Source: a virus
Virus record (IMG/VR): IMGVR_UViG_3300047546_000963
Coordinates: 1-23,267 of that record
Direction: 5' to 3' (one strand)
DNA length: 23,267 bases
The notes below the pieces were generated by a model. The model saw only the letters and a list, made by a program, of their open reading frames with translations. It searched no databases and was not told the origin of the DNA. The position numbers and the translations under genes are program-made. This document shows positions 540-23,200 of this stretch, in pieces (position 1 is the stretch's first letter; each line of letters begins with the position of its first letter).

Positions 540-1690
540 TGCTGAAGTTGAGCATGACAAAAACAAGTTGGGTAGTGAGTGGAACAGTAGCGGGGCAGCG
601 CATACGCAAAGCGTTGAAAGGTATTCCTCCGAGAAAGGAATACAAAGCTGATGCGCAACGTGCGTTGATGGAGTTGGAGCGAGCGGCGTTTAGTGGGACG
701 GGCGCTAAACAGTTTACGTTTGATGAGTGCGCGCAGCACTACGAAACATTCAAGCGTAGAGAGGGGCGCAGCATGGATGGCATCACGCCCTATGTGACAC
801 GATTGATTGCTGCGTTTGGCAAGAGAAGTGCGTCGAGCATTACTGCGTTAGATGCAACGATGTATGCGAATGACCTCGGACGAGTGCAAGCTGGGACTAT
901 TCGCAGACACCTCGTTGCGCTGAAGGCGATTCTCAATCATGCGAATAAGCACGGCATGCTGGATGTTGTGCCAAGGATTGAGTTGCCACGAGCTGATGAT
1001 GCGAGAGATCAACACCTTGAGATTGACGAGATCGATGCTGTGTTGGCATGGGTCAAGACGAATAGGTCGGCGCACTACATGGCGTTGACGATGCTGATTG
1101 ATACTGGGCTACGACTGAATGAGTTGCTCAGGTTGCAATGGCGTGATGTGGCGACGGACAAGATCGTTGTGCAAAGGGTGAGTCACGGCAAGGCCAAGAC
1201 ACGGACAGTCCCCCTGTCCAAGCGTGCGCAGGCTGCGCTTGCTGGGTGTGGTGCGACCAGCTTTGTGGGTAGCGTGGTGCTGAATGCGAGTGGCGGCGCA
1301 TACAAGGATAGGCATGACGCTGCGAGACGCTGGCGCTCTGCCCTATGGGCTGCGTGCGATGCGCTGAAGATTCCTCGGCTGAGACTGCATGATCTACGGC
1401 ACACGTTTGCGTATCAGGCGGCAACGCATGGCGCAGACCTCGGAGATTTGCAGGGGATGATGGGGCATGCGAACGTGTCGATGACCATGCGTTACAGGGG
1501 ATTCATACCCAATAGAGCGCAGGCAATCATCCAAGACTTTGGCAGGATTCTGCCAAGTGACACGAAGACACAACCAAAAAGAAAGGAGGAAAGCCTTGAA
1601 AGCCTTGCTGTGATTGGTAGGCGCGATTGGACTCGAACCAACGACCCCCACCATGTCAAGACTGAAGATGATGATACTCTATCAGAGTGA
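536..1690 (+). CDS. int: phage tyrosine recombinase (integrase)
   Basis: This site-specific recombinase would join attP to a host tRNA gene. It is 384 residues, normal for the family. The N-terminal part has a core-binding-type region at about residues 60-145, and the catalytic domain spans about 160-335. Active-site residues are visible: Arg193 in TGLRLNELLRL, Lys219 in HGKAKTR, His285 and Arg288 in HDLRHTFA, His311 in GHANVSM and Tyr320 in MRYRGF. The start is GTG 536 or ATG 539, overlapping the LuxR-like gene stop. The last ~20 residues (from GRRDWTRTND) are the antisense translation of a tRNA 3' half, so attP lies inside the gene. After integration the C-terminus beyond the core would be read from host DNA. 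Residues 344-360 are a Lys/Glu-rich linker. Confidence 0.93.
   Translation: MMLKLSMTKTSWVVSGTVAGQRIRKALKGIPPRKEYKADAQRALMELERAAFSGTGAKQFTFDECAQHYETFKRREGRSMDGITPYVTRLIAAFGKRSASSITALDATMYANDLGRVQAGTIRRHLVALKAILNHANKHGMLDVVPRIELPRADDARDQHLEIDEIDAVLAWVKTNRSAHYMALTMLIDTGLRLNELLRLQWRDVATDKIVVQRVSHGKAKTRTVPLSKRAQAALAGCGATSFVGSVVLNASGGAYKDRHDAARRWRSALWAACDALKIPRLRLHDLRHTFAYQAATHGADLGDLQGMMGHANVSMTMRYRGFIPNRAQAIIQDFGRILPSDTKTQPKRKEESLESLAVIGRRDWTRTNDPHHVKTEDDDTLSE
1591..1608. repeat. tandem 9-base repeat beside attP
   Basis: AAGCCTTGA (1591-1599) is followed directly by AAGCCTTGC (1600-1608), inside the integrase 3' end and 7 bases before the attachment core. A strong Shine-Dalgarno-like AAGGAGG sits just upstream at 1583-1589 but leads only to a few codons in another frame. 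The repeat may be a protein-binding element of the att region or chance. Confidence 0.35.
1615..1660 (-). other. attP: attP core: 3' half of tRNA-Val(GAC)
   Basis: Read on the minus strand, these 46 bases fold as the 3' portion of a tRNA: loop TTGACAT with anticodon GAC, anticodon 3' stem GGTGG, variable loop GGGTC, T-arm GTTGG/TTCGAGT/CCAAT, acceptor strand CGCGCCT, discriminator A and encoded CCA. The 5' half is absent: the sequence upstream of the loop does not pair properly with GGTGG. This is the classic core that restores an intact tRNA after integration. Phage genes on both sides show the site is unjoined. Assignment to valine rests on the anticodon read from the loop; the chromosomal attB is not in the window. 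Confidence 0.85.
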
Positions 1691-1692
1691 GT

Positions 1693-1738: not shown

Positions 1739-1774
1739 CAACCACTTCTTATCTGAAAGGGAAAGGGCAGGAAA

Positions 1775-2373: not shown

Positions 2374-2382
2374 GACTTCTCC

Positions 2383-2859
2383 TTATGCGTAGACCAAACC
2401 AGGTAGATAAACTGTCTTGCCATCCTTCTTGACGGCCGTGAGTTCCTGCTTCTTCAAGTCGGCAGGGTTGTAGGACACATGCACCCAGCCACTATCGGGA
2501 ACACCGATGGTGTAGAACTCAAGGATGAGCTGCGTGTAGTTGAGATTGTCTTTGATGAACAGAGCCAACTCGTGGTTGGGAACACCTGGGATTTCAATGT
2601 CTGCTGCCATGCCTCGTGTGTGGTCAGATGGCTTTGCACCTTGCACACCGCCCACCGCTGCGTTGACTGCGAGAGAGCGATAGCCGCTGTTGACCTTGAC
2701 GCCTTTGCCGTAGTGGTCACGCACGGGTTGCAAGACCTCCTCGCATAGACGCTTGAGGTTTGCTGTGACCTCATCGTCGGGAGTGTTGTCGATGTTCTGG
2801 CGCAAAGCGGTCTCGCTCTTGCACATTTCTGCGAGGCTGAAGTTATTTGTCAGTTGCAT
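2383..2859 (-). CDS. endolysin, M15-type D,D/L,D-peptidase
   Basis: This 158-residue protein would cut peptide cross-links of host peptidoglycan at the end of infection. It fits the peptidase M15A/M15_3 family: VNSGYRS at 56-62, the zinc-ligand motif SDHTRGMAADI with His80 and Asp87, and a later His127 in WVHVSY. No signal peptide is visible, so export depends on the holin just upstream. The ATG at 2859 is chosen because GGAGAG sits just before it; an upstream in-frame Met at 2913 has no such site and adds a basic tail. The start overlaps the holin gene end by 17 bases. Confidence 0.85.
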   Translation of the reverse strand: MQLTNNFSLAEMCKSETALRQNIDNTPDDEVTANLKRLCEEVLQPVRDHYGKGVKVNSGYRSLAVNAAVGGVQGAKPSDHTRGMAADIEIPGVPNHELALFIKDNLNYTQLILEFYTIGVPDSGWVHVSYNPADLKKQELTAVKKDGKTVYLPGLVYA

Positions 2860-3265: not shown

Positions 3266-3266
3266 A

Positions 3267-3722
3267 TCAACCTCCTACAAACAAAAAGTGCGCGTTCAAA
3301 AACGATGCGATACCCAAGACACCGACAACAATCGACGCCCAGTAGAGGGGCATGGCGATGGCGAGGATGGCTGCTGTAGACAAGACAATCCCGATTTGCA
3401 GCAGGCTGCCTGCGTAGGTGAACCACGGGCTGCGCTTGCGTGCTTGTTCGCGCTCGGCTTCGAGAGCTTTTGCGCGGGCCGAGATTTCTGATTTGTCTTG
3501 CTCCATGCGGGCGGCGTCAGCCTTCCTGCCTGAGGTCTCGTAGATCACGCCACGAATGTTCTTTGCCTGATACCACGCCCACTGGTTGTTTGCCTCGATG
3601 GTGTTGGTCAGAATCTTGCCGCTGTTGCTGTTGCCCAGCAGCGTGTTGATTGCCAAGACAGCAGCAAAGATGCTGATGCTGATCGCAGCCAGGGCTTTGA
3701 TTTCCTTTTCAGTTTTTGCCAT
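3267..3722 (-). CDS. DUF4337-like membrane protein
   Basis: A 151-residue membrane protein with an N-terminal hydrophobic segment (about 10-29), the segment NQWAWYQAKNIRGVIYE near residue 46 that recalls DUF4337 proteins, a charged coiled-coil stretch (75-97) and two C-terminal membrane helices (100-148). DUF4337 has no established biochemical role that I can cite. It sits between a coiled-coil membrane protein and the holin, so a part in lysis or membrane modification is possible but inferred. Confidence 0.65.
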   Translation of the reverse strand: MAKTEKEIKALAAISISIFAAVLAINTLLGNSNSGKILTNTIEANNQWAWYQAKNIRGVIYETSGRKADAARMEQDKSEISARAKALEAEREQARKRSPWFTYAGSLLQIGIVLSTAAILAIAMPLYWASIVVGVLGIASFLNAHFLFVGG

Positions 3723-4232
3723 TTACTTTCCCAGTGGGTTGACTGTTGCGCGACGCAAGACTTGCATCTCTGTGCGCAAAGACTGATTGGTAGTCTCAAG
3801 CTCGGAGCGAATGCCAGCGAGCGCAGCGCGGGATTCCTTTTGCGAACCCTCTGCGATTGCCTTGGTCTCGCGGGCGAGAGCGATGGCGTCGCTTGCCTTC
3901 TCCGACACACGGATCATGGCTTCGCTGAGTTGCACTTGGCGTTCTTTGATTGCGTTCAGCTCGATTGTCTTGGCCGACAGCTCACTTGTTCGAGCTGCCT
4001 GCTCTTGATCGAGACGCACGCGCAGCTCGGCAAGTTCCTTCGATTGACTTGCCGCACGCTTGACGATCTCCTTGTTCTCATCAATCACCGAGACCATCTC
4101 GTTGTAACGAGTTATTGCGGTGTATCCGCCGAAGAACACGCTCGGAATCACGGTGAAGAGCGTCCCCCAAATCACCGTCGGATTCGAGGAAAAGGCTTTC
4201 AAAAAGTTCGTAGCGTCTTCGAGTTTCATCAT
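3723..4232 (-). CDS. single-pass membrane coiled-coil protein, possible inner-membrane spanin
   Basis: A 169-residue protein starting MMKLEDATNF. One membrane segment lies at about 20-42 (VIWGTLFTVIPSVFFGGY), followed by about 100 residues of charged, heptad-rich helix (ELAELRVRLDQEQAARTSEL and on). This layout, next to holin and endolysin, is what an Rz-like inner-membrane spanin looks like, but no clear lipoprotein partner was found, so the role is inference. The start is ATG 4232 or 4229 after AAAGGC; an in-frame ATG at 4268 would add a Ser/Arg-rich tail without support. Its first 152 bases overlap the 3' end of the upstream open frame in another frame. Confidence 0.6.
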   Translation of the reverse strand: MMKLEDATNFLKAFSSNPTVIWGTLFTVIPSVFFGGYTAITRYNEMVSVIDENKEIVKRAASQSKELAELRVRLDQEQAARTSELSAKTIELNAIKERQVQLSEAMIRVSEKASDAIALARETKAIAEGSQKESRAALAGIRSELETTNQSLRTEMQVLRRATVNPLGK

Positions 4233-5124
4233 CTTGCCTTTGTTGCAGCTCGAAGATCGGGAAGACATCGGGCTGCTTGAGTCCAGGCTTCACGAACAAC
4301 TCCAAAGACATCACCAATCCAAAACCTGGGACAAGTGTTTTGCCTGGAGTTGGGGGTTTCAATCCCGTTCCAAGAGAAGCCTCTTGCTTCGTATTGTCTT
4401 GGGGTGGTGCAGGTTTGTCGTCCTTGCGTGCAGGCGCACCTCCGCTATCCCTCTCTCTTGGTCTCTCTTGTGGAGGTGGGGGCGCAGAAGGTGGAGGCGG
4501 CGGAGGTGGTGGTGGCGCAGCGGGAGGCGGAGGCGGAGGCGGTAGCGCCAACGGACTTGTTGGATTCAGAGGTGAAACAGGTGACGATGGATTCGTCGGA
4601 TTGACCAATGTTTTTACGCAGCTGTTTGAAGTCGTCGTCCATGCACCCCACACCGCCGCTCCGTATGGATCGGGACAAGTGGCCATACGGGTCTGGGTAA
4701 TTGAACCTGTATAGCCAGTAGGACAAGACAGACTCTGTGACTCGCTTGAGACTTGACATGTTGGGAGCCTTACGCACGTTGATGCGGTGGTGACCCACGG
4801 CCCCCACAAGGGGGACGTGGAATAGGTATCTGGACAATAGGACTGTCTTGTCTGGGTGGTTGAACCAACATACCCTGCGGGGCATGCGATGGTCTGCGTC
4901 TCAGGCGCAAGCGGCACGCACTTTGGGGCAGCGCCGCTGCACCCAGCCATCGTTGGCCAGATGTTGCACACCATCTGCTGGCATTGCGTCAGCGTATAAG
5001 TTCCATACGCCTGAACTGTTGAGTAGTCAGGCGAGCCAGCACCTCCTCCAATCGAGCAATAGTTCTGCGCTAGTGCGTTAATTGGGAGAAGGAGCAGGAG
5101 CAGGAGGCGTCCAAGTCTTTCCAT
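4081..5124 (-). CDS. secreted Cys-rich repeat/polyproline protein
   Basis: A 347-residue open frame starting with a signal peptide (MERLGRLLLLLLLPINALAQ). The mature part holds two copies of a Cys-rich module: CPAGYVGSTTQTR with C and WGPWVTTASTC, then CPTGYTGSITQTR with C and WGAWTTTSNSC. A low-complexity run with two long proline blocks follows, then a charged, Lys/Pro-rich stretch and GKTLVPGFGLVMSLELFV. Such modules occur in adhesins and phage attachment proteins, so a periplasmic or surface role is likely; the exact job is unknown. The last ~50 residues overlap the next gene out of frame and look like shadow translation, so the real end or a programmed shift deserves a check. The start lacks a good Shine-Dalgarno and overlaps the upstream gene by 47 bases. 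Confidence 0.6.
   Translation of the reverse strand: MERLGRLLLLLLLPINALAQNYCSIGGGAGSPDYSTVQAYGTYTLTQCQQMVCNIWPTMAGCSGAAPKCVPLAPETQTIACPAGYVGSTTQTRQSYCPDTYSTSPLWGPWVTTASTCVRLPTCQVSSESQSLSCPTGYTGSITQTRMATCPDPYGAAVWGAWTTTSNSCVKTLVNPTNPSSPVSPLNPTSPLALPPPPPPPAAPPPPPPPPPSAPPPPQERPRERDSGGAPARKDDKPAPPQDNTKQEASLGTGLKPPTPGKTLVPGFGLVMSLELFVKPGLKQPDVFPIFELQQRQDDETRRRYELFESLFLESDGDLGDALHRDSERVLRRIHRNNSLQRDGLGD
4471..4545. repeat. GGN-rich low-complexity tract encoding polyproline
   Basis: On the plus strand this is an imperfect run of GGAGGC/GGTGGT units; on the coding (minus) strand it is CCN codons giving two proline blocks separated by alanines. Such tracts are prone to slippage and ribosome stalling. 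Confidence 0.75.
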
Positions 5125-5539
5125 ACAACTGGTGGAACCTTTCGGGTTTCATCTTGAACCACGCCAACCTTGCGGTATCTCCAATGGAGCCACCGATTGG
5201 ACAAGGCGACCCGCTCATCTCCATCGCACGCCACACTTTGTCGTCGTCGCACAAGACAGAAACTGCTGCGACCTTGAGGCCCAGGTCATTGAGCGTCTTG
5301 GCCAACTTGATGCGCACGCAGTTGTCATCAAGCAAGACAGTGCCTCCGCTGACTCCAAAGATGGTGGTCGATACAGAACCAGCCACTGGGATGGCGCACA
5401 CGTCTTGGCTGAACGCAGACATCGATGGTGCGATTGCTGACGGCGGCGGCTGACCTTTGTAGTTAATGGTCGTGTCTTGTGCGAGTGATTGGCCGATGGC
5501 TGCAATCCAGCACAACACGACGAGGGCTATGCGTTTCAT
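5078..5539 (-). CDS. small secreted hypothetical protein
   Basis: A 153-residue protein with a clear signal peptide (MKRIALVVLCWIAAIGQSLA, cut before QD). The mature part has four cysteines (in DVCAIPV, DDNCVRIK, SVLCDDDK and GSPCPIGG) that could form two disulfides, around KLAKTLNDLGLKVAAVSVLC. I recall this Cys pattern from unnamed phage proteins, but no function is known to me. The C-terminus is Pro/Ala-rich. Its start overlaps the preceding 53-residue gene, and its end overlaps the Cys-rich repeat protein by 47 bases. The pair may work together outside the inner membrane. Confidence 0.65.
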   Translation of the reverse strand: MKRIALVVLCWIAAIGQSLAQDTTINYKGQPPPSAIAPSMSAFSQDVCAIPVAGSVSTTIFGVSGGTVLLDDNCVRIKLAKTLNDLGLKVAAVSVLCDDDKVWRAMEMSGSPCPIGGSIGDTARLAWFKMKPERFHQLYGKTWTPPAPAPSPN

Positions 5540-5697: not shown

Positions 5698-6182
5698 AGG
5701 TGTTCTCCAAATCGAATGATGAATGTGTAGCGGTCTGAACCAGCCGCTTTGACTTCGTGAACGTAGTCAGCGCTTGATGGCGCTAAGACGCATGTGCCTG
5801 CTGTTGGTTTGATGGTGACGCCCTGCTTCGGGAACACGGTCTCTCCACCATCGCACTCGTTGAGGAAAATAATTGCAGAGCTTGAAAAGAAATGACGAAC
5901 TGTCCACTCTCCATCCTCTGACCACACACCGTTGTCAGCATGCAAGTCCATCGATGATCCGCTGACATACTTCAAGACATGAGTGTTCTTGACCAGTGCA
6001 GGATTGCCAACAAGCAAGTTGGCAATCCGTGCCGTCATCTCATTCATCGGGAGATGAGCAACCATCGGGTTCTCACCGTGCATCTTCCCGTCGTATGTGG
6101 GCATGACAGAGCCGCGCTGCGCTTGGGCAATCAACCACTCGCGCTCGACCCTGTTGATGATGTTTGGTATGACGCGAATCAC
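5694..6182 (-). CDS. 2-oxoglutarate/Fe(II) oxygenase, prolyl-hydroxylase type
   Basis: A 162-residue dioxygenase of the P4Hc type, which couples 2-oxoglutarate decarboxylation to hydroxylation of a protein or nucleic-acid substrate. The iron triad is visible: His81 and Asp83 in LHADNG, and His142 in YVHEVKA. Arg151 in SDRYTF is placed to bind 2-oxoglutarate, and GGETVFP at 112-118 is the usual strand after the HxD. The start is GTG 6182, overlapping the upstream stop as GTGA. The substrate is unknown. A second, different member of the superfamily is encoded at 13607-14236. Confidence 0.85.
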   Translation of the reverse strand: MIRVIPNIINRVEREWLIAQAQRGSVMPTYDGKMHGENPMVAHLPMNEMTARIANLLVGNPALVKNTHVLKYVSGSSMDLHADNGVWSEDGEWTVRHFFSSSAIIFLNECDGGETVFPKQGVTIKPTAGTCVLAPSSADYVHEVKAAGSDRYTFIIRFGEHL

Positions 6183-6322: not shown

Positions 6323-6690
6323 TTCCACCACCCCATTTGCTTTCCGATGTTGTAGGCTTCTTGATCGCCCCGTATTTCCTCATCCACGTCATCAAACTCG
6401 TTTTGCTTTCTCACCACGCCCTTAACAACGCGGCCATCTTTGACGGTGGTGATCTTTGAATGCTCGATCTTTGGCGTTGGCGTTGGCTTCGTGCTAATGA
6501 GAGCGAGAGCGGGCTTGTTTTCCCTTTGTCTTCCCCTCGAACGCTTGCCAACTTTGACGAGCTTTTCTTCCGTGTGAAAGACTGTCCCGCACCCTTTGCG
6601 TCCGCACACCCTACGCCTTTTGACAACGTCATCTTCCTTCCTGCTGTCTTGAACTTCAGTGTTCAGCGAATTACAGTTCGGACAGCGCAT
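6319..6690 (-). CDS. NrdR-like zinc-ribbon protein without ATP-cone
   Basis: This 123-residue protein begins like the NrdR zinc ribbon: MRCPNCNSLN, VQDSRKEDDVVKRRRVC, then CGTVFHTEEKL. Four cysteines (3, 6, 29, 34) would bind zinc. NrdR represses ribonucleotide-reductase genes, but its ATP-cone is not recognisable here; the remaining ~75 residues are charged and low-complexity. The spacing of the second Cys pair (C-x4-C) also recalls Ogr/Delta late-gene activators of P2-like phages, so a DNA-binding regulator is the safer call. ATG 6690 is chosen because GGAGG lies 4 bases upstream; the in-frame ATG at 6705 would place that site inside the gene. Confidence 0.65.
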   Translation of the reverse strand: MRCPNCNSLNTEVQDSRKEDDVVKRRRVCGRKGCGTVFHTEEKLVKVGKRSRGRQRENKPALALISTKPTPTPKIEHSKITTVKDGRVVKGVVRKQNEFDDVDEEIRGDQEAYNIGKQMGWWK

Positions 6691-6723: not shown

Positions 6724-7125
6724 TCACGCGCTTTGCTGTCGTCCAAGCCATGCCTTGTAGAACTCTGCCCAGTCTTTTAAGCGCATGACGACGAGGGAGT
6801 CTTCGGTTCCGATTCGGTTGCGTCGCGTTACGACTACTGGAATGTCTTGGCTCTTGCGTCCTTCGATCCCACATTCAGCCTGATCCATAGCCTTGTAGGG
6901 AGCAAATGCCTCAACACGCTTCGCTTCGACCCAGACACCAGGAGTGCCGATGAGATCAGCACTTCCGCCACGAATACTGGGATCAACGCTGTGAGAAAAG
7001 CTACGGCCGCCGCCACTAAGAGGGGCACGGAAAGCACAATTCCCGCCCAAGACATTGTCGTTGAGATAGCCCGCAATCTCCCGCTCATACCCATCTCCCT
7101 TTCGTTTACCACTTCTTCCGCTCAT
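6724..7125 (-). CDS. PD-(D/E)XK endonuclease, Holliday-junction resolvase-like
   Basis: A 133-residue nuclease. The fold signature is present: Glu14 in GYEREIAGYL, a Gly/Ser-rich loop near 38-55, Asp57 in SADLIG, and Glu67-x-Lys69 in VWVEAKRVE, followed by an AMDQAE helix. This order matches archaeal Hjc-type and phage resolvase-like PD-(D/E)XK enzymes, which cut branched DNA before packaging or after recombination. A basic N-terminus (SGRSGKRKGDG) fits DNA binding. AGGGG precedes the ATG. Specificity for junctions is inferred from fold only; VRR-NUC-type nucleases are the alternative. Confidence 0.75.
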   Translation of the reverse strand: MSGRSGKRKGDGYEREIAGYLNDNVLGGNCAFRAPLSGGGRSFSHSVDPSIRGGSADLIGTPGVWVEAKRVEAFAPYKAMDQAECGIEGRKSQDIPVVVTRRNRIGTEDSLVVMRLKDWAEFYKAWLGRQQSA

Positions 7126-7502: not shown

Positions 7503-7538
7503 CTTGTCCCCTTCATAAAACACTACATGTCGTTAATT

Positions 7539-7658: not shown

Positions 7659-7676
7659 ACTTATAAGACTTATAAG
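7659..7676. repeat. tandem 9-base direct repeat ACTTATAAG
   Basis: ACTTATAAG occurs at 7659-7667 and again at 7668-7676, directly against the hairpin and running into the end of the 7670-7981 gene. Related AAGAGG words recur at 7609-7633. Purpose unknown. Confidence 0.5.
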
Positions 7677-7981
7677 AGGGTCTTGTAGCGGTCATCCATA
7701 TCAGGCCGCCCCTGCGTCATCCCAAGCAAGAACATCAGGCAGCACATCGCATGAGCGAGGTGCGGCAGACCTGACTCTGGATCGTTGTCCTCACCGCTGT
7801 TGAAGGCGTGTATATGGCGTAACGCAGCCGCGACAAGCCTGCTGTATGCCAAGCCGTTGCGCCAGTTGTGAGCCGCATACTTCTGCGCGCCAAAGCCCAG
7901 CACCAAGGCCAGCTGTTCGATGGCGAACCTGTCGAGCAAATCCATGCGGGGCTTATCTTGATCGTGTTTGATACCACTCAT
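7670..7981 (-). CDS. dATP/dGTP diphosphohydrolase-family protein (DUF5664)
   Basis: A 103-residue, all-helical protein of the phage family formerly DUF5664, now named dATP/dGTP diphosphohydrolase. Family marks are KHDQDKPRMDLL near the N-terminus, FGAQKYAAHNWRNG, then RHIHAF and SGLPHLAHAMCCLMFLLG, giving the His/Asp/Glu residues of a metal-bound nucleotide site. Relatives include MazZ, which supplies dGMP for 2-aminoadenine DNA synthesis; the partner PurZ is not seen here, so general dNTP-pool control is just as likely. Its ATG overlaps the primase stop (ATGA), so it is coupled to replication. Confidence 0.7.
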   Translation of the reverse strand: MSGIKHDQDKPRMDLLDRFAIEQLALVLGFGAQKYAAHNWRNGLAYSRLVAAALRHIHAFNSGEDNDPESGLPHLAHAMCCLMFLLGMTQGRPDMDDRYKTLL

Positions 7982-9993
7982 GCTTCATCCTTTAATCCGA
8001 GCCATTGCCGCACAATGATCTGCGGCACTTTGAGGAGGTGAGAAATCTCGCCAACGGTCTTGCCTTGGCTGAGGTAGAACATCGCCTTCTGCCTTGGCGA
8101 CTTGGTGCTGGTGATGTATTCGTTGGCCGTGTCGTAGTGTTCGCAGAAGCCAACGTATTGCCGTGTGTGGTTGTCGGTGTATTGACGCACCTTGCCAAAG
8201 CTCACCTGCTGCACCATGACCAAGCGGCTCTCAGGCTCAAGCCTGTTCTCCAGATATGACCAAGGAGTCCACACCTTGCCGTTCATGTCCGTGACTTCGA
8301 GGTCGTCATCTGCTAGGCCAGCGATGGCCTTGGCCTCGTCCTTCGTCTTGGCCACCTGCGTCACCATCACCTGCGTGTCGATGTCTGTCAGCTGCGCGGT
8401 TGACCCAGCTTCACGGCCAAGGCCACCCTCCCCTGGCTTGTTGCGGTGGTGGACGAGGATGACAGCGCAGCCCATGTTGCGTAGCGTCTTTGCTACATGG
8501 TTCACAACCGCCCACGATTGAGGGCTGAATTCGTCAAGTCCCCTGAAGGCGTTGCGTATCGTATCGATGACAACAACGTCTGGAGTCCATGTCTTCACCC
8601 ACTCGCCAAGCTCCGCAAACCCGCTCTCCGTGGACAACACGAAGGGTTCGACGAAGTCCTCGAAGGTCGATGGCAGGTTCAGGGAGACGGTCATAAAGTT
8701 CTCGCCTGGGTCACCGTAAGATGACAGCCACTTGCTGATGCGATGCTCCATCGTGGCTGCTGGCATCTCGAAATCGAAATACATGCAACGCCAAGGGCGG
8801 TCAACTTGGAACGGCCCGAAGGGACGGCCAAGGCTGACCTGATACAGCATGTTGCCGATGAACAACGATTTGCCGTGCCCGTTGTATCCCACCACCTGCG
8901 TGATCGTCCCAGGTTTAAGGATGGGGTCGAGGATGTATTTGTCCTCCTTGAGGTAGTTCTTCAGACGCCCCATATCGCTGGCCAGAAGGGGGCGTAGCGC
9001 CTTTATTTTGGCTGGCTGGGGGGTTACCCCTTCCTCTGCCTTGAGCGTCCCATCAGCGTCGTATCTGTCGGGGTGGTTGCGCTTGTCGATCTCCTCTGCG
9101 CTCTGGATCGTGCGGATGAATTCATTGCGCGGCAGCGGGTCTTCAAAGTAGTGGTCGCAGAAGGACTCGCAGGCCAAGACAAGATCGTCGCCAATCACGC
9201 CCTGTGCAATCCGCTCTCCCGCATACCTGATGAGCCACGAGTTCCTGCCGTCCCCGTTGCCCATCTTCCTACCCTGCCGAAATACCCAGAGCTGCGCCTG
9301 ATCCCAGACAGACAGGAAGTCCTGCGGCGTTTGCACCTTGACCCCAGAGAGGTCAAGCTCGCCAAATGAGAACTCGCCATCTGGGGCTGGGGACTTGGTG
9401 GCCTTTGTCTTGCGCCACGTCTGAAGCTCATCCCACGCAAGGGTATCGTCAACGACCCACTCGTATTGGTGCTTAAGCGAGCCGTCTTGATTGAACGACA
9501 CGCTGGGTGGCAGCAAAGCGTATCCGCCGTCGCCCCTGAAATCCAAGCCCTTGAGGTCAGGCCAATCGTTGGCGTTGCCGCCCACCTTGTTTTGGTAGTA
9601 GCCGTCGCCAGGGTGCTTCCAGTAGTAGTGCGCACCCCTTGAAGTGCGCACCTGCCAGAAGGAGAAAAGCCCGTTGTCCGAGCAGAACTCCTTGGCCTCG
9701 GAATTGTCGGCATCGACAATGACCACACCAGAGATGGAGCCAGTCACGATGGCAAGGTTGAACACCTTGACGAACGATCCTGACTCAGTCTCTACACCCC
9801 TCGTGAACCACTCATTCACCTCGGCGTCTGTCACCCGCCTCGATTGGTAGTCCTTCCATTTAATTAACGGCTTCTTGTCGGCTATCGATATGGGGATGAT
9901 GTTCCACCCCCTCGTCAGATACTCCCGCGCTGCTTTGTGCATCTCCGCTTTCAGCGTCGATACCAGCTGATCCTGTCCCGTCGTTTCCTGCAT
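7978..9993 (-). CDS. primase-helicase: Prim-Pol plus RecA-like ATPase plus HTH
   Basis: A 671-residue replication protein. Residues about 15-180 form a bifunctional primase/polymerase domain (Prim-Pol, PF09250): Asp94 and Asp96 in VIVDAD, His122 in RTSRGAHYYW, Asp151 in LDFRGDGGYALLPPS. A linker to about 355 leads to a RepA/AAA_25-type ATPase with Walker A GYNGHGKS (369-376), Walker B VVVIDT (Asp477) and VILVHHRNK near 515. The end (KSPRQKAMFYLSQGKTVGEI onward) is a helix-turn-helix that could bind an origin. It likely primes and unwinds phage DNA. ATG 9993 is chosen for AAGGAGAG just upstream; longer in-frame starts lie inside the Cro-like gene. Confidence 0.88.
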   Translation of the reverse strand: MQETTGQDQLVSTLKAEMHKAAREYLTRGWNIIPISIADKKPLIKWKDYQSRRVTDAEVNEWFTRGVETESGSFVKVFNLAIVTGSISGVVIVDADNSEAKEFCSDNGLFSFWQVRTSRGAHYYWKHPGDGYYQNKVGGNANDWPDLKGLDFRGDGGYALLPPSVSFNQDGSLKHQYEWVVDDTLAWDELQTWRKTKATKSPAPDGEFSFGELDLSGVKVQTPQDFLSVWDQAQLWVFRQGRKMGNGDGRNSWLIRYAGERIAQGVIGDDLVLACESFCDHYFEDPLPRNEFIRTIQSAEEIDKRNHPDRYDADGTLKAEEGVTPQPAKIKALRPLLASDMGRLKNYLKEDKYILDPILKPGTITQVVGYNGHGKSLFIGNMLYQVSLGRPFGPFQVDRPWRCMYFDFEMPAATMEHRISKWLSSYGDPGENFMTVSLNLPSTFEDFVEPFVLSTESGFAELGEWVKTWTPDVVVIDTIRNAFRGLDEFSPQSWAVVNHVAKTLRNMGCAVILVHHRNKPGEGGLGREAGSTAQLTDIDTQVMVTQVAKTKDEAKAIAGLADDDLEVTDMNGKVWTPWSYLENRLEPESRLVMVQQVSFGKVRQYTDNHTRQYVGFCEHYDTANEYITSTKSPRQKAMFYLSQGKTVGEISHLLKVPQIIVRQWLGLKDEA

Positions 9994-12392: not shown

Positions 12393-13214
12393 ATGAAAGC
12401 AAAAGACGTTGTCGAAGCAATCGACAAGGCGTATCTAAACAAGAAAAAAGAAAAGCCAAGACAGTATCTTGGGGCATCGATTGTCGGAGACGGATGCACG
12501 GCATACCTATCGCTGTCTTTGCGCGGATTCCAAGACACACCTCCAGACCCCAAGCTCATGCGCATCTTCGAGGACGGCCACCGCATCGAAGACAGGGTGG
12601 TGAAAGACTTGGTCAATGCTGGGTTTGATGTCAGCAACATCGATGGCTTTACTGGCAAGCAGCACGCATTCCAAAAGTTTGGCGGTCACTTCTCTGGACA
12701 CGCTGACGGGATCATCATCATTGATGACCAAGACCATTTGCTTGAGATCAAGTCTATGAATGAAGGTCGATTCAAAGACTTCGTTCGACAGGGTGTTCGG
12801 TCATCGCACCCCAAATACTATGCGCAGATGCAGGCCATGATGGGTATGTCAGGGCTTCGCCGAGCCATGTTCATCGCATACAACAAGAACACCAGCGAGT
12901 ATCACGTTGAGTTCATCGAGTTCGATGAGTTCTACTACAGCGGCCTTGAGGCCAAGGTTGAAGGTGTTTTGGCTGGCTCGGCTTTGCGCATCTCTGAGGA
13001 TGACACCGACTGGCGCTGCCGCGCATGCTTCAAGCGAGATGCTTGCTGGAACCCTTCGTATCACGCAGAAATCACGGCCACCAACGGAGCCACATGCGCT
13101 AAGTGCATGCACTCGCTGCCATCAGTCAACGGCCAATGGCATTGCAACAAGCACAACAGAGAAGCTCTGGAGATTTGTGGTGATTGGAGCTTGTTCAAGG
13201 TGAGACCGAAATGA
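12393..13214 (+). CDS. Cas4/RecB-like PD-(D/E)XK exonuclease
   Basis: A 273-residue nuclease. The catalytic core shows HRIE (63-66), Asp105 in GHADGIIII, Glu118-x-Lys120 in LLEIKSM and Gln145 in YYAQMQ. Cys35 near the N-terminus plus Cys209, Cys212 and Cys218 at the end of the core match the four-Cys iron-sulfur staple of Cas4/AddB-type nucleases. Beyond it, CAKC and C-x2-H in GQWHCNKH suggest an extra zinc-binding tail. It likely makes single-stranded tails for the Sak4-like partner. TAGGAG precedes the ATG. The cluster metal is inferred from Cys spacing. Confidence 0.78.
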   Translation: MKAKDVVEAIDKAYLNKKKEKPRQYLGASIVGDGCTAYLSLSLRGFQDTPPDPKLMRIFEDGHRIEDRVVKDLVNAGFDVSNIDGFTGKQHAFQKFGGHFSGHADGIIIIDDQDHLLEIKSMNEGRFKDFVRQGVRSSHPKYYAQMQAMMGMSGLRRAMFIAYNKNTSEYHVEFIEFDEFYYSGLEAKVEGVLAGSALRISEDDTDWRCRACFKRDACWNPSYHAEITATNGATCAKCMHSLPSVNGQWHCNKHNREALEICGDWSLFKVRPK

Positions 13215-13393: not shown

Positions 13394-13610
13394 GCGCAAG
13401 GCATACGGGCTACTTGGCAGACCGCCAGATTCTGTCTTGTTCAACAAGGCATTCTTGAGTCAATGGATGGAGCTGGAGCTTAAAGCGCGAGATGTCGTGA
13501 GGGTGCGCGACGTCTACAAGCGAGAACAGATGGCAAAACAAATTGAGATGGATCACCACCGCATCATCGCTGCCGCAGAGAAGTATCAATCCCAGGGAGC
13601 GAAAGCATGA
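13377..13610 (+). CDS. small hypothetical protein
   Basis: A 77-residue basic protein preceded by GGAGAG. It starts 17 bases before the upstream stop and ends in an ATGA overlap with the oxygenase gene. It is mostly helical (LSQWMELELKARDVVRVRDV), with no recognised domain. Close packing supports it as a real gene of the early operon. Confidence 0.6.
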   Translation: MVTQSERKAYGLLGRPPDSVLFNKAFLSQWMELELKARDVVRVRDVYKREQMAKQIEMDHHRIIAAAEKYQSQGAKA

Positions 13611-14236: not shown

Positions 14237-17200
14237 TTGCCGACATCTGGCGTCCCGACAATCATATTTTCTCCGCTGTCGCCCTCTTTCCAGACGTTGG
14301 CTCCTCTGCCCCATGCGCCCTTGAGTTCCAACCCTTTCATCTTGATGCCGTGCATCTTGGTGACTGGGGCGTTGGAGACCTTACGGGCTTCGCCAGCGAT
14401 CAGATCAGTTGTGCCTTCTCTGAAGTCACGGTTTGAACCTATGACTGGGATACGGCCGCTGACGTTGCGAACTGCCTGACGTCGGTCGCCGTTGCCTGGG
14501 TCATCGCTGAGCGCCTCCGCAAAGCCAGACAGCACCTGCTGGCCTTCCACCAGCGTGGACACCGATGGCCCGAAGACACCGCTCAAGACACGGACAGTTC
14601 CGTATGCGCCGTTATCCAACTTCTGGGCGCTATTGAACAGCATGTCGCCAAGCAGGCCGATGCCGATGACGGAGACCATAGACTCAACATACCAACCGAG
14701 GAACTTGTCCAAGTCCTTGTTCATCATCAAGGCTGTTGGCTGATCGATACCAAACTCTTTGAGAATCTTGGTCATCGAGCGGTCGCGTAGAGCGCGGCTC
14801 TTCTCGTCTTCCCCGCCGCGTGACTGGATGTAGTCGCGGATGGCAAGACTGCCCATACCAAAGCCAGCTGCCACGGTGGTCAGATAAGTCAGCGGCATGA
14901 CGTTGCCCTGCTTGGCCTCCGACAAGACATGCTTGGCCAAGCGGCCCATCATCATTGGGTATGACTTCAGCTGCCAAGCGATAGCGCCGAGTGGGCTTTG
15001 TGCCCAAAGCGGGATGTCGTTCTTGTTCGGGCTGAACACCGACTCGTTGGCAAAGCGGATCAGGGCCATGCGAACCTTGTCTTGCTCCATCGCCTTCTCG
15101 ATGTTGTCGAGCATCGGCGCACCTGGCTCAAGGAAATCCTCAAGACCGAAGTGACGCAGGATTCTGTCTGCCTTCCTGAAGGCGCGGGTCTGGATGTTCC
15201 CGTTGGCGTATGCCGCATGCGCAATGCGCTGCTCGGCCTGCAACATGTGGAAGCCAGTGAGCGCCGCCAACTCCCTGTTCATCGCAGTCCAAGGAGTCAA
15301 CAGGTTCAACTGGAAGAACGCGTTGGTGAATCTGCTGCTGGCTTGACCGTCGAGCTGGGCCAACCTGTCATGCACCAAATTCTCCATCGAGACGCCAAGG
15401 TTTCTGACGGCTTGACGATAGCGATCATCGACGTTGAACCAGCTGGACACACCCTTGAGGAATGACGCCATGTCGCCAGAGCGAACCAGCGGCAGGATGA
15501 AGTCAGGGATAGACGCCAGGGTGGACATCGAAAGTAAGGTAACGGCGTTAAAGTTACGCAGTGTCTTGGATGTCTTCTTCAGCAGCTCAGGATAGTTCTG
15601 AGTGCCAGGAGAGTGAGACATGGCCGCATACATGTTGGCCATAAAGTCCATTTCGCTGCGAGACATTGTCTTGCCGTTGAACCCGAAGTCCGAGAGCGCA
15701 GCCACGATGGCGTCAGAGCGTCGTGCCCAGTCGCCAGACTCGTCTGCGTGCCCGTAGATTTTCTCCAGGTAAGCCTTGGCCGTTCCGCGAGCGGCGTCTT
15801 CGTTGCCACGACCAGCTGACGTGAAGATGTATTCCAGCTGCTGCGCAACTGCACGAGCCTGCGCTTCAGGCATGCCAACAACCTGTGTCTTGGTGATGGA
15901 TGTCACCTCGCGCTCCAAGTCTGTATTGCGCAGGAACTGCTTGTTCTCCTCGGTCACGTTCTTCATCAGCACATCAACCAGGGCATCACGTCCGCCGTGA
16001 GCGATGTATCGATACGCGGTCAAGCCGTGAGCGTTGGTTCCAAACTTCTCGTGCAGGATGAGGCGTCGAACGGCCGAGTCGTAGTATTTGACGATGATGC
16101 CTTCGATGTCATTGACCAGGTATTTGTTCATACCCAGGCGCTGCATCTGCTCAGGATTCATCGCCAAGACACGGCGCATGAAGTGGTCTCCGCCATCAGC
16201 AAATGCCGCGTCGTATGGCAGCGTCACGCCAGCATCGTTGTCCAGACGCATGATGACTCCGTCTGCTCGGCGTAAAGCATCTGCTCGCACCGCCTCTGGC
16301 GTCATCTTCCCAGTTGAGAAGGTGGGGTCTTCCATGAAGAAGTCGGCAAGCGAGTTGCGGAACTTGTCCACGTCTTTCTTGATGAGTTCAACGTCCCACA
16401 CTTGCGGGAAGTAATCACCGCCGTAGCGCTTGGCGTCGCCAACCAACACACCAGAGTCGGTCAGCTTCTTCCAGATGTTGTTGAATTCGTCACGAATCTT
16501 GAACGCAACATTGCGCTCAGCTTCGGCCAGGTTGGAATAAGAACCCATGCGGATCGCGTCAGCAATGCGCGTGTAGCTCTTGGGCAACGCAGGCCCAGTG
16601 TGACCAAGTGTGGCCAGCGGCTTGAGGTTGCCGACCCACCGTTTGAACCCGCTGCTTGCATCTTCGAGAGTGTGCAGCGCGTCGATCAAAGGATAGACAA
16701 TCTTGCCGAACTCGCTGTTGTGCTGCTCAAAGAAACCCACTCCGTCTTTCGGGCTGATGTAATCCGCAAACCAGCGAGCGCCGTCTTGACGCAGCCTGCT
16801 TGAATTCGTGCGCAACTGCAACGCCTTGAAGTCTGCAATACGAGAGACATCGCTCTCGCTTGTAGCCTCTCGTCTTGCGATCTTGCGCAGGAAAGCTGCA
16901 ACGTCTGCCGTTGCACCACCACTGCCAACAGCGGACTGTATGCCAGCACCGATGTCTTCCCCGCCCATCATTGCGCCGAGGAGTTTAGGAACGGGCTTAC
17001 CGTTCTCAAGCTCGCGCTCGGCCATCAGGTTGGGCTGTCGTTCTTTGAGGAACTGCGGGTCGTTGAGTGGTCGAACCCTGCTCTCATCAAAGACGACCAG
17101 CTTTTCAACCATTGATCCATCATCCAGACGCTCCACAACTCGAATGGAGTCATAACCGCGTCCAACCAGCGATTCATAAAGTGCATTCTTGCCACCCTTC

Positions 17201-20200
17201 CCGAATGATGCGACCATGCCGTCATACAGACCTGGCGAGGAAGCATCAAAGATTTGGCCAGTAGACACGAACACAGGCGTGGTTCTGTTGAACTGCTCAG
17301 CAGTGCGTCCAGAGATCACCTTGTTTGCAAGACCCTCTGTCATCATGTTCTCTGCGATGGCGGCTGGCGTGCTATCAGCGTGCTGCATCATCTTCAGTGT
17401 CTGTTCATCGAGAACATGCACGGCCGATTCAACAGCACCTGATGTCGCATGGTCACCAGCACGCAAGGCACGCATGATGTCTTCGGCTGTCTTGGTTGCT
17501 GCCAAGCCAGCTTTCTTGTAGTGGGCCAGATAAATCCCTGGGCCATACTGACCATCCAGCCGAGGGAATGTTTGTGGGCCGTCCAGGGTCACGAAGATGT
17601 GATCCTTCAGATCGATGATCTTGGACTGCGGCGCGTTGATGAAGTCAAGCGCAGCGGCGCGTTGCTCAGGCGTCATGTTGACGAGAGACTCTTCAACATA
17701 CTTGCGAGCAAACATCGGGTGGGTTACGTTCTCACCATACATCTGACGAGACAGCCCAATCGCGCTGGTCTCTGGGCGCATCTGCGAGAAGACGTCACCG
17801 TATGCGGCCAGGTAGAAATACTTGCGAGAGAAGTCAGGGTTTGCGTGGTTACCGCTGAACATGTAGCCCAGCTTTTCTGCCACGTCTTGACCAATGTTGG
17901 CCAGACGTGCAGCGCCTGAGTTTGTGCCCCATGCAAGTGCAAGAGGACGCTCGCCAGCCAGCCAAGACTGAACGCCGTTTACAAAGAAGTCTTCGGCGTT
18001 CTCCATCTTGGTAGTGCCTCGGCGTGCGGCTTCGGCAAATGCTTGAGCCACAACCTTCTGGCTGGACTCGTCAATGACGCCGCGATACAGCAATCGAGAA
18101 GCTATGTTGACGGCGACGTCGGCGTCACCGCCAACTTGTAAGTTGGCAGCAAGGCGTCGCATGTCTTTGCGCAGCGCCATGAACGACTCTGACGACACGT
18201 CAAGGCCAACATTGGATGTCTTGGATGCGCGAACACCAGAGAGTCGCTCGTTCACAAATTGACCGATGTCTTGCGACGCGCCAGTCATGTCTCGCTCTGT
18301 CATGTCCATCATGGTCATCAAGCGATTGCCAATCGAACGCATAGAGGTTTGTGCCACTGGGTCGCGATGAGTCATGCGCACCAACCACTCGGTGACCTGC
18401 GGTGTTGCGTTGGCAGGGATGCTGACAAACTCAGGAGCGCCCACGCTGTCGAGCATTTCTCTGCGCATTGCATTGAGCGTTGATCCAGACTTCATGGCGA
18501 GATACTTGAAGTCCTCTCCAGCAGCCAGCGCTCTTTGGGCGCGAGCGCCTAGCATGTGTGCCGCAGCTTGTGCCACCACCGAGTCGCCACTCTTCATGGC
18601 TTCCACGAGACGATTGGCCAACTTCTTGTTTCCAAGCTGATGGAGTTCTTTCATCAAGTCATCGCCAGCAGCCGCTGGGCGAGGGATCGCTGCGGCTTGA
18701 CGCTGGAACCTGCTGCCGATCTCCTTTGCCAAGGCGTCAGCACGCTTGGATTCTGGGTTGAGTTCTGGGTTACGCAGCTCTGCCAGCATCTCAGGCATGG
18801 TCATTGTCTTGGCTGCGCGGGCCTGGGCGCTGGCCCCAGCTTCTGCTGCCGAGCCAGGAACGGTAGTGGAACCTGCCTCTGCAATGTCGGCTGCTGCCTT
18901 GGCCTCCAAGGCTGCGCGTTGCTCGCGAGCCTTCTTGACCTTTTGGCGATCCTCGACAATGTCTTTATACCCACGGCTCTTCTTGATGTTCACACCATCG
19001 CGCTGCATTGCAACGCTGGTTTGAGACTCAATGTGTGATGCGAGCTTTTCGCTGAATGCGTCGAGCGCAGCCAGCGCACGCACTGCCAAGCCGCCAAGCT
19101 GAGCCATCTCGTTGGGAGAGGCGGCAGCATTGAAAGCGTCAGCCAGAGCGTCGAATGATGTGACGTGTTCGTTCGCCATGTCTGCAATGGCAGACTCTTC
19201 GAGGCCACGAGAGAATTTTGGATCAACAGCAAACTGCTCCAAGAACTTGTTCGTGTCGTCGTTCCATTGGCGAACAAACTCGCTCCACTTGACTTTGCCT
19301 TCCTTGCCTTCGCCAACGTGCATGGCTTTGTAAGCATGCTCAAGGAAGTTTCCTTCGCCATGCTCCTTGACAAACTGAGCGTAGTCGCGGTTCACCGACT
19401 TGTAGATGCCATAGAGGAAGTTGCGAACTGGGCCGTCACCAGCATCTCCGCCGTGGAACAGCATGCTGCGCAGAGAATCTGCCGATCCAGTTGAGATGGC
19501 GTCAGACAGCTGCTGGCGCATACGCGCCATCTTGTCGAAGAACAAGACAGTGGGCTGGATTCCAGGTGCAAAGAACCCATCCTCGGTGCGAGTAATGAAC
19601 GATGCGCCGTTTGGCATTTCGTCGGGGAAGATTTTTGAATACAGAACTCCAGCCCCATCAACCAGCTTGTCATCGTGGTGCTTGCCAAACAAGCGCTCGA
19701 CCACCCCGTTGATCTTGGCAATGAAGCCACGGATGATTTCCTGAGCTTGCTGGATGAATGTCTTGCTCTGCCCAGCCATTTGCTCAGCACCAGTGCGAGT
19801 AATCGCGCTGTTCAATCCCTCGGCAGCGGTTCTCACCACATGCTCAAAGCCAGGGATGTTCATCTTGGCTGCAACAAAAGACACCATCTGATTGGCGAAC
19901 AACTCTTGCGGGCTGGCAAGAGCGTTGCTGCCACTACCAGTAGCTTGATAGTAGGTGTAGTCCTGAATCTTGGTGGTGTTCAGCGTGCCGTCAGCGTCAT
20001 ACATCTCCCGACGAATCATGCTGAGCCACTCAACCCGCTCACTTGGCGTGAGGGTGTTGAAGTAACCCCAGTGACCAAGCTCGTGGATGAGGGTCAAGAC
20101 AGGAGACATCGAGCCAGGGTCTCTGTTGCCAATGGGCAAATCAGTGACCGCAATTGCCTGCCTGTCGTATGGGTTGAACTGAGCCTTATCTGGGCGAACT

Positions 20201-23200
20201 TCGCCATTGACGCCAAACAATGCGCCAGCCACGCCTTCAGAGCGCATGCTTTCTGAGCCAGGGATGAACTCTGGCGAGAACTCCCCGCCAAGTCGGCGGA
20301 GAATGATTTGCGCCGTGTCTTGCTCTTCTCGGCTGAATGTCGAGAACGTGTCATGCAGCATCTGCAAACCGCGACGGCGAGTCGTGTTGTTTGCCTGAAT
20401 GCCATCGGGAGCGTAGTGCTTGATGATGTCAGTCAGGAACTTGGACTCAGCGATCACGGCGTCAAGCTGGGCGGCCGTGCCGATTTTGTCCCAGCTGATT
20501 TGCATGATGCCGTTCAAAGCGCGATGGGCTTGGAACAGGGTGTATTGCGAGTAGTCGGTTCCGCTGGGGGAGAGCTTCGACCCAGTCGCAGTAACAATCC
20601 CAGTCTCATCCAGAGCGGTGGTCGCCGCTTTGGCCTCGCTCATCACCTTGGCTGGCATTGCTTTCTTGACAGAAACACCAGGTTTCACGTCAGAGTAAGG
20701 GGTTTCACCTAGACGACGGAATGTCTTGCTTGCGTATTGGGTGTTGCTGGTGGCTCCGACTGGAACAGTCCCGATCTCCCACTTTGCAGCATCAAGCTGC
20801 TGCCCGTATACCTTGCTGCTGCCAGCCATCTGGGCAGGTGTTTGGCGCGTGCCGTTGGCGAAGTTGTTGTCGCCTTCTGCACGAACGAGGAATGTGCCCT
20901 TCTCTGCCATAGCGTCACTGACAAACGTCGGGAAGCGAATGGCCAACTTGTGTGTGTCAGGGATGCCAAGCTCAGCGGGAGACAAGTCTTTCCCTTTAAC
21001 CCACAGCTGCGGATCAAGCGGGTCGATGCTGGACACGCCAGCGATCCTGTCTTTCAGGTTAGAGAGCGAGTCGCTCGACATCGACGCAATCGGCTTCGGA
21101 CTGGAGTTCGACTTGGTCAATTTGCCAGCCGCGCCCATGCGGTCGATGATCTTGCCAGATGCCTCGGTTGCAGCCAGGAAGACACTGGTTGGGTCTGAGT
21201 GGACTGTCTTGACTTGGACGCCAGTGTCTCCGTCGAGACGACTGAACGTGACAGTGCCGTCAGCATTCTTGGCAATGCTGCCGATTCGTTGGCCAGCAAA
21301 GCGCACGGTTCCGCTCGGCTCAATCTTGAAGTCAGTGCCACGGACTTCATAGCCGTTGTATAGATACACGTTTGGCGTGTCTGATGTCGTGGCCGCCTTA
21401 CCAGCCGCCTGTTTGATGTGTTCTGCTGCTGTTTTGAGGCCAGCCTCGCCATTGACAGCGCCTTTCTCAACCAGGCGGGCAACGGCCTCGGAGTCGTTGG
21501 TGATGCGCATTGCCTCATCCAAGACACGGTAGGCGTCACCGAGAGCAACGCTGATCTCGTTGGCGGTGGTGTTGTGCAGGCGCATTACCTCGGCCAGCTG
21601 GCCTTTCATGCGCTCATAGGAAATGGGCGACACCTTGCCAGCTGCCAGCCTAGAGAAGCGATCACCAACGTCAACGCGTTTGTCGGCTGGAGTGGCAGCA
21701 TCGACCATGCGTTGCGTGAAGTTGTCGAAGTTCGACACGTTCACACCAGCGTCCTGCAAGCGGCCCACGCGCTCTTCCAAGACAATGCGGAACACGCTGT
21801 CGCGGAAGATTTGCTGCTTGGCTGCGATGTGGATCGCGTTCGCTTTGGCTGCGTCGGCAAACGCCAAGCCAGTCAGAGGCTCAATAAAGAGAGCGTTGCT
21901 CGACTGCTTGTATGTTCCGCCAGAAACCAGCGTCTGGTTAGGGGAAACACCAGTCTCTGCCTGAGCTTTGGCTGCTGCTGCCTCTGCCTGCGCAAGAGCT
22001 TCGTTGGTCTGCTTCTTGAGTTTTGCGATTTCTGCACGAGCGGCGTCCCGCTTGGCGACCAACACCCTGCTGATTTCTGACTTAACTGCTGCATCAGCTG
22101 GCCAGTCACCAGCGCCATCCCAGCGGAACTTCTTGCCATCTCGCGAGATCGGGAGTTCCGTGTGCTGCAAGGCAAGCTCATACAAGTCCTTCTTGCTGCG
22201 CATCTTTGCCAGCTTGTCCAGCACCGCGCTTGCTTGGCTGGCTTCGGTGGCGTGCGTGGAAATTTGTCCCGCGAAACTCTGGTTGATGTTGTATTTCTGC
22301 TGGTCAAGCGTTGGCCCAACGCGAGCAGTCATGCCACCCAACACCTCGTCCGATTGAGAACCAGGTGCGGCTGGACGGCGGGTAACGCCGTCCGCCGTGG
22401 TCATGGACATGTTCTCCCAATCGAGGTAGCGCTGATTGGTGATCGGGTCTACAAAGAAAGCCTTGCCATGAACCCGACGATTCTCCATCGCAACAGATGC
22501 GAGGAACAATTCCATGCCACCGTCACCAGGTTCCCAGCGAGACTTGATCTCATCGAAGTCAGCAAACTTGCTGTAATCGATGCCCTTCTCAACCTCTTTG
22601 GCAGAGAAGTCTCCAAGACGCGCACGGTATTCGGTGGTGCGCGTGCTTGGCAAAGACATCAATTTGCGAGCGCCATCGGATTCGGGCGAGTAAAGCGTTC
22701 CAACTTCCCTGGCGTTCTTGGGTAGGTTGCCCATAAACGCTGCGTGAATCTGGGCTGCATACTTGGACAGCCAAGGATATTTCCGACTGATCGGGCTATC
22801 AAACTTGGAGACCTTGCCGAAGTAGCCATGCGAGTTCGCTGTCTTGACGGCGTTCTCCATCGCATGTTTGGCCAGGATGTAGACGGTTCCGTTCAGCCCA
22901 GGCTCGAAGACAAACTTGCCATCTCGCTCAACCAGGCGTCCCTTGAGCGGGCGCAGCCCAGTCAAGACAGCGGTCTCGATCTGGCCAGACTCTGGATTCA
23001 GAGCGGGGCCAACGATAGCGTCTTCGAGATTGATGATGCCGTTGCCACCAACATCTGGCGTGAACTTGCGGCCAGCCGCCTTGTCTGCGATGGCCTTCTT
23101 GATTAGCTCAGATCGGTATTGAGCCACGATCTCTTTGCGAGCCGTCTCATCTAGGCCGCCATCCTTGGCGTAGCGCAGCATGGTTCTGCCGTAGCGATCA

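Follow-up and report, generated by a model that had tools for sequence, protein, structure and literature searches.

What reads a short DNA word that recurs on both strands throughout a phage genome? The question is raised by a 23,267-nt stretch of viral DNA (IMG/VR record IMGVR_UViG_3300047546_000963, positions 1 to 23,267; the whole stretch is called the window below), which carries 46 exact copies of the heptamer CAAGACA. Twenty-two are written CAAGACA and 24 as the complement TGTCTTG; the first starts at 1195 and the last at 22963. The recount is identical, in number and in positions, to the hand count of an initial annotation of the window. The mean density is about one copy per 500 bases, both strands taken together. 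The excess is real and is a property of the DNA, as set out below. Our proposal, to which we give an even chance, is that CAAGACA/TGTCTTG is the template recognition word of the phage's own Prim-Pol, a priming start site kept dense on both strands. Both parts of this proposal, the primase as the protein that reads the word and priming as the outcome, are inferred.

CAAGACA sites in the window, by exact word count
1195..1201, plus strand, CAAGACA site
2413..2419, minus strand, CAAGACA site
3315..3321, plus strand, CAAGACA site
3381..3387, plus strand, CAAGACA site
3494..3500, minus strand, CAAGACA site
3654..3660, plus strand, CAAGACA site
3966..3972, minus strand, CAAGACA site
4395..4401, minus strand, CAAGACA site
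4724..4730, plus strand, CAAGACA site
4844..4850, minus strand, CAAGACA site
5252..5258, plus strand, CAAGACA site
5333..5339, plus strand, CAAGACA site
5473..5479, minus strand, CAAGACA site
5973..5979, plus strand, CAAGACA site
6645..6651, minus strand, CAAGACA site
6843..6849, minus strand, CAAGACA site
7048..7054, plus strand, CAAGACA site
9175..9181, plus strand, CAAGACA site
9406..9412, minus strand, CAAGACA site
10855..10861, plus strand, CAAGACA site
11240..11246, minus strand, CAAGACA site
11693..11699, plus strand, CAAGACA site
12457..12463, plus strand, CAAGACA site
12531..12537, plus strand, CAAGACA site
13433..13439, minus strand, CAAGACA site
14584..14590, plus strand, CAAGACA site
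14923..14929, plus strand, CAAGACA site
15078..15084, minus strand, CAAGACA site
15562..15568, minus strand, CAAGACA site
15667..15673, minus strand, CAAGACA site
15886..15892, minus strand, CAAGACA site
16165..16171, plus strand, CAAGACA site
17488..17494, minus strand, CAAGACA site
18217..18223, minus strand, CAAGACA site
18267..18273, minus strand, CAAGACA site
18805..18811, minus strand, CAAGACA site
19543..19549, plus strand, CAAGACA site
19759..19765, minus strand, CAAGACA site
20095..20101, plus strand, CAAGACA site
20316..20322, minus strand, CAAGACA site
20722..20728, minus strand, CAAGACA site
21205..21211, minus strand, CAAGACA site
21520..21526, plus strand, CAAGACA site
21778..21784, plus strand, CAAGACA site
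22840..22846, minus strand, CAAGACA site
22963..22969, plus strand, CAAGACA site

Counts and codon context of CAAGACA

CAAGACA is the most frequent 7-mer of the window; the runner-up non-overlapping 7-mer has 22 copies. Shuffling synonymous codons, with the protein sequence and codon counts kept, gives an expectation of 6.0±2.2 copies, and a check of this kind, suggested earlier as a way to dismiss the word, reached at most 14 copies in 1000 shuffles. The excess is about 7.7-fold, with z about 13-16. On this scale the runner-up independent 7-mers have a z of about 6, and none approaches CAAGACA, which disposes of the concern that other 7-mers are equally enriched. The initial expectation of 2.8 copies was too low, and its 16-fold excess too high, because uniform base use was assumed. 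A low-order Markov model expects 14.1 copies, and a maximal-order model does not flag CAAGACA in the window because the word itself raises the counts of its sub-words. A synonymous shuffle that also preserves junction dinucleotides has zero freedom (46/46 in every shuffle) and is uninformative.

The excess is confined to the exact word. CAAGACC, CAAGACG and CAAGACT have 7, 9 and 7 copies; the drop reported for last-base variants stands, with a total of 23 in place of about 19. AAAGACA, GAAGACA and TAAGACA have 13, 13 and 0 copies, in keeping with the earlier figures for A and T and above the 8-9 given for G. All 21 one-mismatch neighbours have between 0 and 13 copies, so the claim that all seven positions matter is borne out. 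The sequence flanking the copies carries little information, as the description of random flanks had it.

All 46 sites lie inside genes, in both orientations and including structural genes. In called open reading frames (ORFs), 26 copies are in sense and 17 in antisense orientation, and each set is enriched separately (balanced z 9.4); therefore the word is not explained by a peptide or by a codon-pair preference. Codon choice is skewed toward it: AAG ACA is used for 16 of 24 C-preceded Lys-Thr pairs and GTC TTG for 21 of 37 Val-Leu pairs, while TTG makes up a quarter of Leu codons (140/571). These results agree with the initial view of a DNA-level signal rather than a protein motif. The word is also not polar in the manner of Chi or the FtsK orienting polar sequences (KOPS), as had been argued from its strand balance: the strands have 22 and 24 copies, and the window shows no switch from one strand to the other along its length (P 0.35).

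The genic location bears on the idea that the copies are silencing sites bound by a repressor, as stoperators are in L5-type mycobacteriophages. The stoperator pattern consists of many dispersed asymmetric sites. The window shares this pattern, with tens of such sites, and its phage is likewise judged temperate, by its integrase. Cluster A stoperators, however, are 13 bp long, mainly intergenic and oriented with transcription, whereas the CAAGACA sites are 7 bp long and all genic, in both orientations, structural genes too. Strong words also occur in phages N4 and SE4, which have no integrase among their listed genes. Silencing sites are thus a very improbable explanation.

No prior report of CAAGACA or of over-represented phage primase sites was found in the open-access literature, with most subscription journals outside the scope of the search. 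A scan of IMG/VR for CAAGACA triples returned at least 120 stretches; among the matches listed, none longer than 3 kb comes near 2 copies per kb on both strands, and the densest are short or strand-biased.

Variants of the word in related phages, and comparison with host DNA

Relatives of the window phage were fetched by similarity to two of its replication proteins, the primase and Sak4. These and the neighbouring genes of interest are:

7978..9990, minus strand, Prim-Pol primase-helicase with an archaeo-eukaryotic primase (AEP) catalytic domain (PF09250), helix bundle and RepA/AAA_25-type helicase; proposed word reader
10775..11581, plus strand, Sak4-like ATPase/single-stranded DNA annealing protein, replication module; rival reader
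12393..13214, plus strand, Cas4/YqaJ-type exonuclease, replication module; rival reader
6724..7125, minus strand, Holliday-junction resolvase, replication module (PHROG 'RusA-like', phrog_244)

The set comprised 39 dereplicated loci, window included, with ORFs called by a simple greedy rule. The top-enriched 7-mer has an AGAC/GTCT core in 24 of the 39, compared with 2 of 72 unrelated viral loci and 3.1% by chance (binomial 1e-26, Fisher 4e-12; the loci are related, so that independence is overstated). Because the control loci were chosen for containing a CAAGACA triple, they are biased toward the AGAC core, which makes the contrast harder to obtain; their z values are in turn reduced by a mean length below that of the relatives. 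No other tetramer is shared nearly as often as AGAC among the relatives' top words, examples of which are CAGACG, CAAGACG, AAGACGA and CAGACTT. CAAGACA itself is sparse in most relatives, with the exception of locus L165 (20 copies), and most carry a dense word of their own. A 62 kb whole prophage reported from a Sphingomonadaceae bacterium has 100 copies of CAAGACG (42 plus, 58 minus) versus 12 of the reversed word.

The flanks of the core are lineage-specific: the window has AAGACA only, Roseobacter phage CRP-810 has CAGACG, L172 and L247 have TAGACG, L185 has CAGACT and CAGACG, L200 has AAGACG, and L165 has AAGACA and AAGACG. Some relatives lacking AGAC are one or two steps off in the same frame (CACGACA in L262, CAAGCCA in L171, CACGCTC/CAAGCGC in L204). 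The GC content of the relatives ranges from about 34 to 69%, and their primase tree spans deep branches along which the words change. This comparison of sequences indicates that the word belongs to the phage family, with the AGAC/GTCT core shared and the flanks varying by lineage. CAAGACA resembles Chi, KOPS, the DNA uptake sequences (DUS/USS) and the highly iterated palindrome HIP1 in being a short, very dense word maintained through synonymous codon choice. It differs from them in not being polar, in not being host-wide as far as tested, and in being specific to a phage lineage whose members share a core while the flanks change.

Second words were also seen. In CRP-810 (L004, L270), ACGTACG is strong as well as ACGTCTG and CAGACG, with 40 copies in L004 versus 9 expected, and ACGTACA occurs in the L215 group (35-37% GC). 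L050, an IMG/VR control locus from an unrelated phage, has a balanced word CTGGCCA (8/8 versus 2.5 expected), and other word-bearing phage families of this kind may exist.

Word copies are kept exactly between relatives of 80-97% identity more often than words of the same composition (pairs share a reference within each group, and both directions are counted). In the SE4 group 26 of 28 copies are kept (0.93 versus 0.54 for same-composition words); the corresponding fractions are 0.90 versus 0.64 for AAGTCTG, 0.75 versus 0.53 for ACAGACG, 0.78 versus 0.61 for GCCAGAC, and 0.77 versus 0.64 for CAAGACG. Site conservation in the related phages is as would be expected under purifying selection. The alternative to selection is a bias in mutation or repair, such as would arise if a phage enzyme turned near-words into CAAGACA. 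Words can become more frequent through a Vsr-like process, and the absence of TAAGACA and low counts of neighbour words would suit such an enzyme. The excess conservation speaks against it, as does the depletion, which is not confined to one neighbour word. None of the 19 differences between the window and locus L002 creates or destroys a site, though few such changes would be expected. We regard a bias of this kind as improbable.

The change of words between relatives also argues against a methyltransferase or restriction system as the reader. The form of the word, seven bases without a palindrome, would fit a Type I, Type III or bacteriophage exclusion (BREX)-like site. Phages, however, usually lose rather than gain such sites, and no methyltransferase was recognised among the scanned genes of the window, which do not include every ORF. 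This is the least probable of the explanations considered.

Host-wide words raise a separate question. Pervasive host words exist, DUS and HIP1 among them, and a phage could copy one. The comparison with phages of other hosts makes a host-wide word or uptake tag, two options of the initial annotation, unlikely. CRP-810-type phages have Roseobacter, Sphingomonadaceae and SAR11 hosts (PMC11288001), and the AGAC core nonetheless persists in the family. No AGAC-core word is among the top words of two Roseobacteraceae plasmids or of roseophages SIO1, DSS3phi2 and CRP-901. On the same enteric hosts, T7, N4 and SE4 have three different words, and lambda, Mu and HK97 have no word comparable to CAAGACA and no AGAC-core top word. 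GAACCA, in turn, is common to N4 (E. coli) and DSS3phi2 (Ruegeria), that is, across host classes. The word thus appears to be a property of the phage lineage and not of the host, an indirect reading for CAAGACA itself, drawn from the hosts of the relatives.

The Prim-Pol as candidate reader

The window primase matches PF09250 at 74.3 bits (cut-off 22.8) and has an AAA_25 helicase; its match to PriCT_1, the helix-bundle domain with which such primases read the template site, is at 17.7 bits, below the cut-off of 21.1. The presumed catalytic residues D93, D95 and H121 (hhhDhD and sxH motifs) are invariant in 27 relatives. The structural model has a mean predicted local distance difference test score of 85.6 for the whole protein and 89.3 for residues 1-320. 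Its head matches the catalytic domain and helix bundle of pRN1 ORF904 (Z 12.8-13.1); the alignment with 9aam runs through residue 308, helix bundle included (Z 13.1, root-mean-square deviation 8.2). The head matches NrS-1 PrimPol with Z 7.0, and the helicase matches RSF1010 RepA with Z 21.6. The enzyme is an AEP Prim-Pol with a helicase, and its closest modelled match is ORF904.

NrS-1 PrimPol requires 5'-TTTGGTTA or GTGG/GTGA on its template (PMC8718748), and ORF904 requires GTG (PMC12205980). Sequence-specific starts are therefore established for the Prim-Pol architecture, and both enzymes share fold and domain order with the head of the window enzyme. The NrS-1 site is similar in length to CAAGACA; the N4 word TGGTTC overlaps TTTGGTTA, and the SE4 word TTGTGGG contains GTGG. 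Phage ctLpZ231 (L283, MW202444), whose Prim-Pol with AAA_25 and PriCT_1 has the architecture of the window enzyme, has CTTGAGC at 16/18 versus 9 expected.

Under the priming proposal, the single-stranded template would pass through the helicase ring, the AEP and helix-bundle head would recognise the word on one of the two strands, and primer synthesis would start there. A long word would offer too few chance start points in a genome of 20-60 kb, and selection would use synonymous sites to hold one copy per about 500 bases on both strands. The AGAC/GTCT core would be old, and the flanks would shift between lineages as the specificity of the reader drifts. A word on both strands suits a genome primed on either strand.

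Parallel words occur in other phages; those of N4 and SE4, whose primases differ, match CAAGACA in strength but not in sequence. Coliphage N4 (L284, NC_008720, 1-49900) has 68 copies of CTGGTTC/GAACCAG versus 16 expected and 141 of GAACCA versus 43, both words on both strands. Its relative on Ruegeria, roseophage DSS3phi2, has 96 copies of GAACCA versus 38 expected, and the primases of both carry PriCT_1. Salmonella phage SE4 (L277, MK770413, 1-49900) has 36 copies of CCCACAA/TTGTGGG versus 4 expected, 18 per strand, and the word is conserved in its relatives L281 and L282. Profiles of the window primase family gave no significant match to the SE4 and CRP-901 primases, so that only a PHROG name (DNA primase) and motifs identified by eye mark the SE4 enzyme as AEP.

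T7 provides a control with a known answer. Its priming sites are GGGTC, TGGTC and GTGTC (PMC11109968), and TGGTC ranks 7 of 512 pentamers (126 versus 80 expected, z 4.9), which gives mild support to a primase as the reader. T7 gp4 is likewise a phage primase-helicase, whose sites are used on the lagging strand; it is, however, a TOPRIM/zinc-ribbon enzyme unrelated to AEP, with a shorter site and mild enrichment. The GTC common to the T7 sites and the window word may be coincidence.

Several results weigh against priming. In these phages the primase is accompanied by Sak4 and the Cas4-type nuclease, and the comparison cannot tell the three candidate readers apart; no single residue of the primase, Sak4 or Cas4 was found to covary with the base that precedes AGAC. 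The strand switch along genomes that lagging-strand-only priming with a fixed origin would predict was not seen, and the spacing of CAAGACA is random rather than even (coefficient of variation 0.90, P 0.32). In 15 of the 39 relatives the top word is another or none is clear. Among T7 pentamers the best priming site, GGGTC, comes no higher than rank 44 of 512 and GTGTC is at rank 104, TTGTC is not enriched, and several non-primase pentamers outrank TGGTC. No strong word was found in Streptococcus phage P738, which has a Prim-Pol with PriCT_1, in CRP-901 or in lactococcal phage 1706, whose known site CCAAC is not enriched (76 versus 66). The NrS-1 genome has just two copies of its 8-mer (PMC7102993), unlike the window, where the word recurs about every 500 bases and the helicase is RepA-like. 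A priming word therefore need not be dense, as P738, CRP-901, 1706 and NrS-1 indicate. Something more must be required for density, and a primase specificity that is both strict and long may be what it takes.

Another phage-encoded reader comes next after the primase and is possible, if doubtful: the word could act like Chi, as a pausing or loading site for the Cas4/YqaJ exonuclease or Sak4 in recombination-dependent replication, or be read by a DNA-binding or packaging protein. The word is accompanied by the Cas4-type nuclease and Sak4 as consistently as by the primase; SE4 encodes both of these rival readers, and N4 and DSS3phi2 encode Sak4. Chi-type signals, however, are polar, which the balanced, unswitched word is not, and lambda shows no such word despite its own exo/beta. 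We also know of no sequence specificity for Sak4 or phage YqaJ nucleases. Among the options of the initial annotation, priming by the Prim-Pol, which headed its list, is best supported, by comparative evidence from outside the window, and its standing is still the even chance given at the outset.

A wider claim, which we hold tentatively and somewhat below that level, is that phages with their own long-site primase write its start word genome-wide on both strands, so that primase specificity could be read from sequence. The words would be CAAGACA here, CAGACG in CRP-810, GAACCAG in N4 and TTGTGGG in SE4. If true, a k-mer count would predict the template specificity of many uncharacterised phage primases, link a phage to its replication enzyme and explain an unrecognised constraint on phage synonymous sites. 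Whether the density of priming sites limits lagging-strand replication enough for selection is testable in the laboratory phages N4 and T7. If another protein reads the word, a new genome-wide phage signal is left to explain.

Affiliation and other genes of the window phage

The nearest isolate to the window is CRP-810, with identities of 41-44% (primase), 50% (Sak4) and 47% (Cas4) and the same relative gene order. CRP-810 is the founding member of a family of temperate marine phages, described as having an integrase and a core of Prim-Pol, AAA ATPase (Sak4) and PD-(D/E)XK nuclease in conserved synteny (PMC11288001); the window has these core replication genes, the synteny and the integrase. 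Further core genes of the family, for the portal, terminase large subunit and major capsid protein (PMC11288001), would lie beyond the 23 kb fragment. In the primase tree the window primase is distant from the CRP-810 clade, which suggests a distant relative of CRP-810, an outlying member of its family at most. Two contigs in IMG/VR have almost the same sequence as the window.

The integrase gene is adjoined by a LuxR-type regulator. The regulators of the window include:

105-539, helix-turn-helix protein
7134-7523, helix-turn-helix protein

No tRNA genes were found in the 23 kb window, which also encodes a peptidase-M15 endolysin. Two separate 2OG-Fe(II) (2-oxoglutarate and iron-dependent) oxygenase genes are present, at 5694-6182 (minus strand) and 13607-14236 (plus strand), and one such oxygenase is annotated in the CRP-810 stretch that was read. 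A small protein encoded at 7670-7981 (minus strand) matches the N-terminal domain of dATP/dGTP diphosphohydrolase (PF18909, 117 bits). A single open frame of at least 3010 codons at 14233-23265 (minus strand) runs off the edge of the window and appears to encode the end of a giant virion protein, with matches to PHROGs of virion structural and internal virion proteins in the C-terminal 800 residues.

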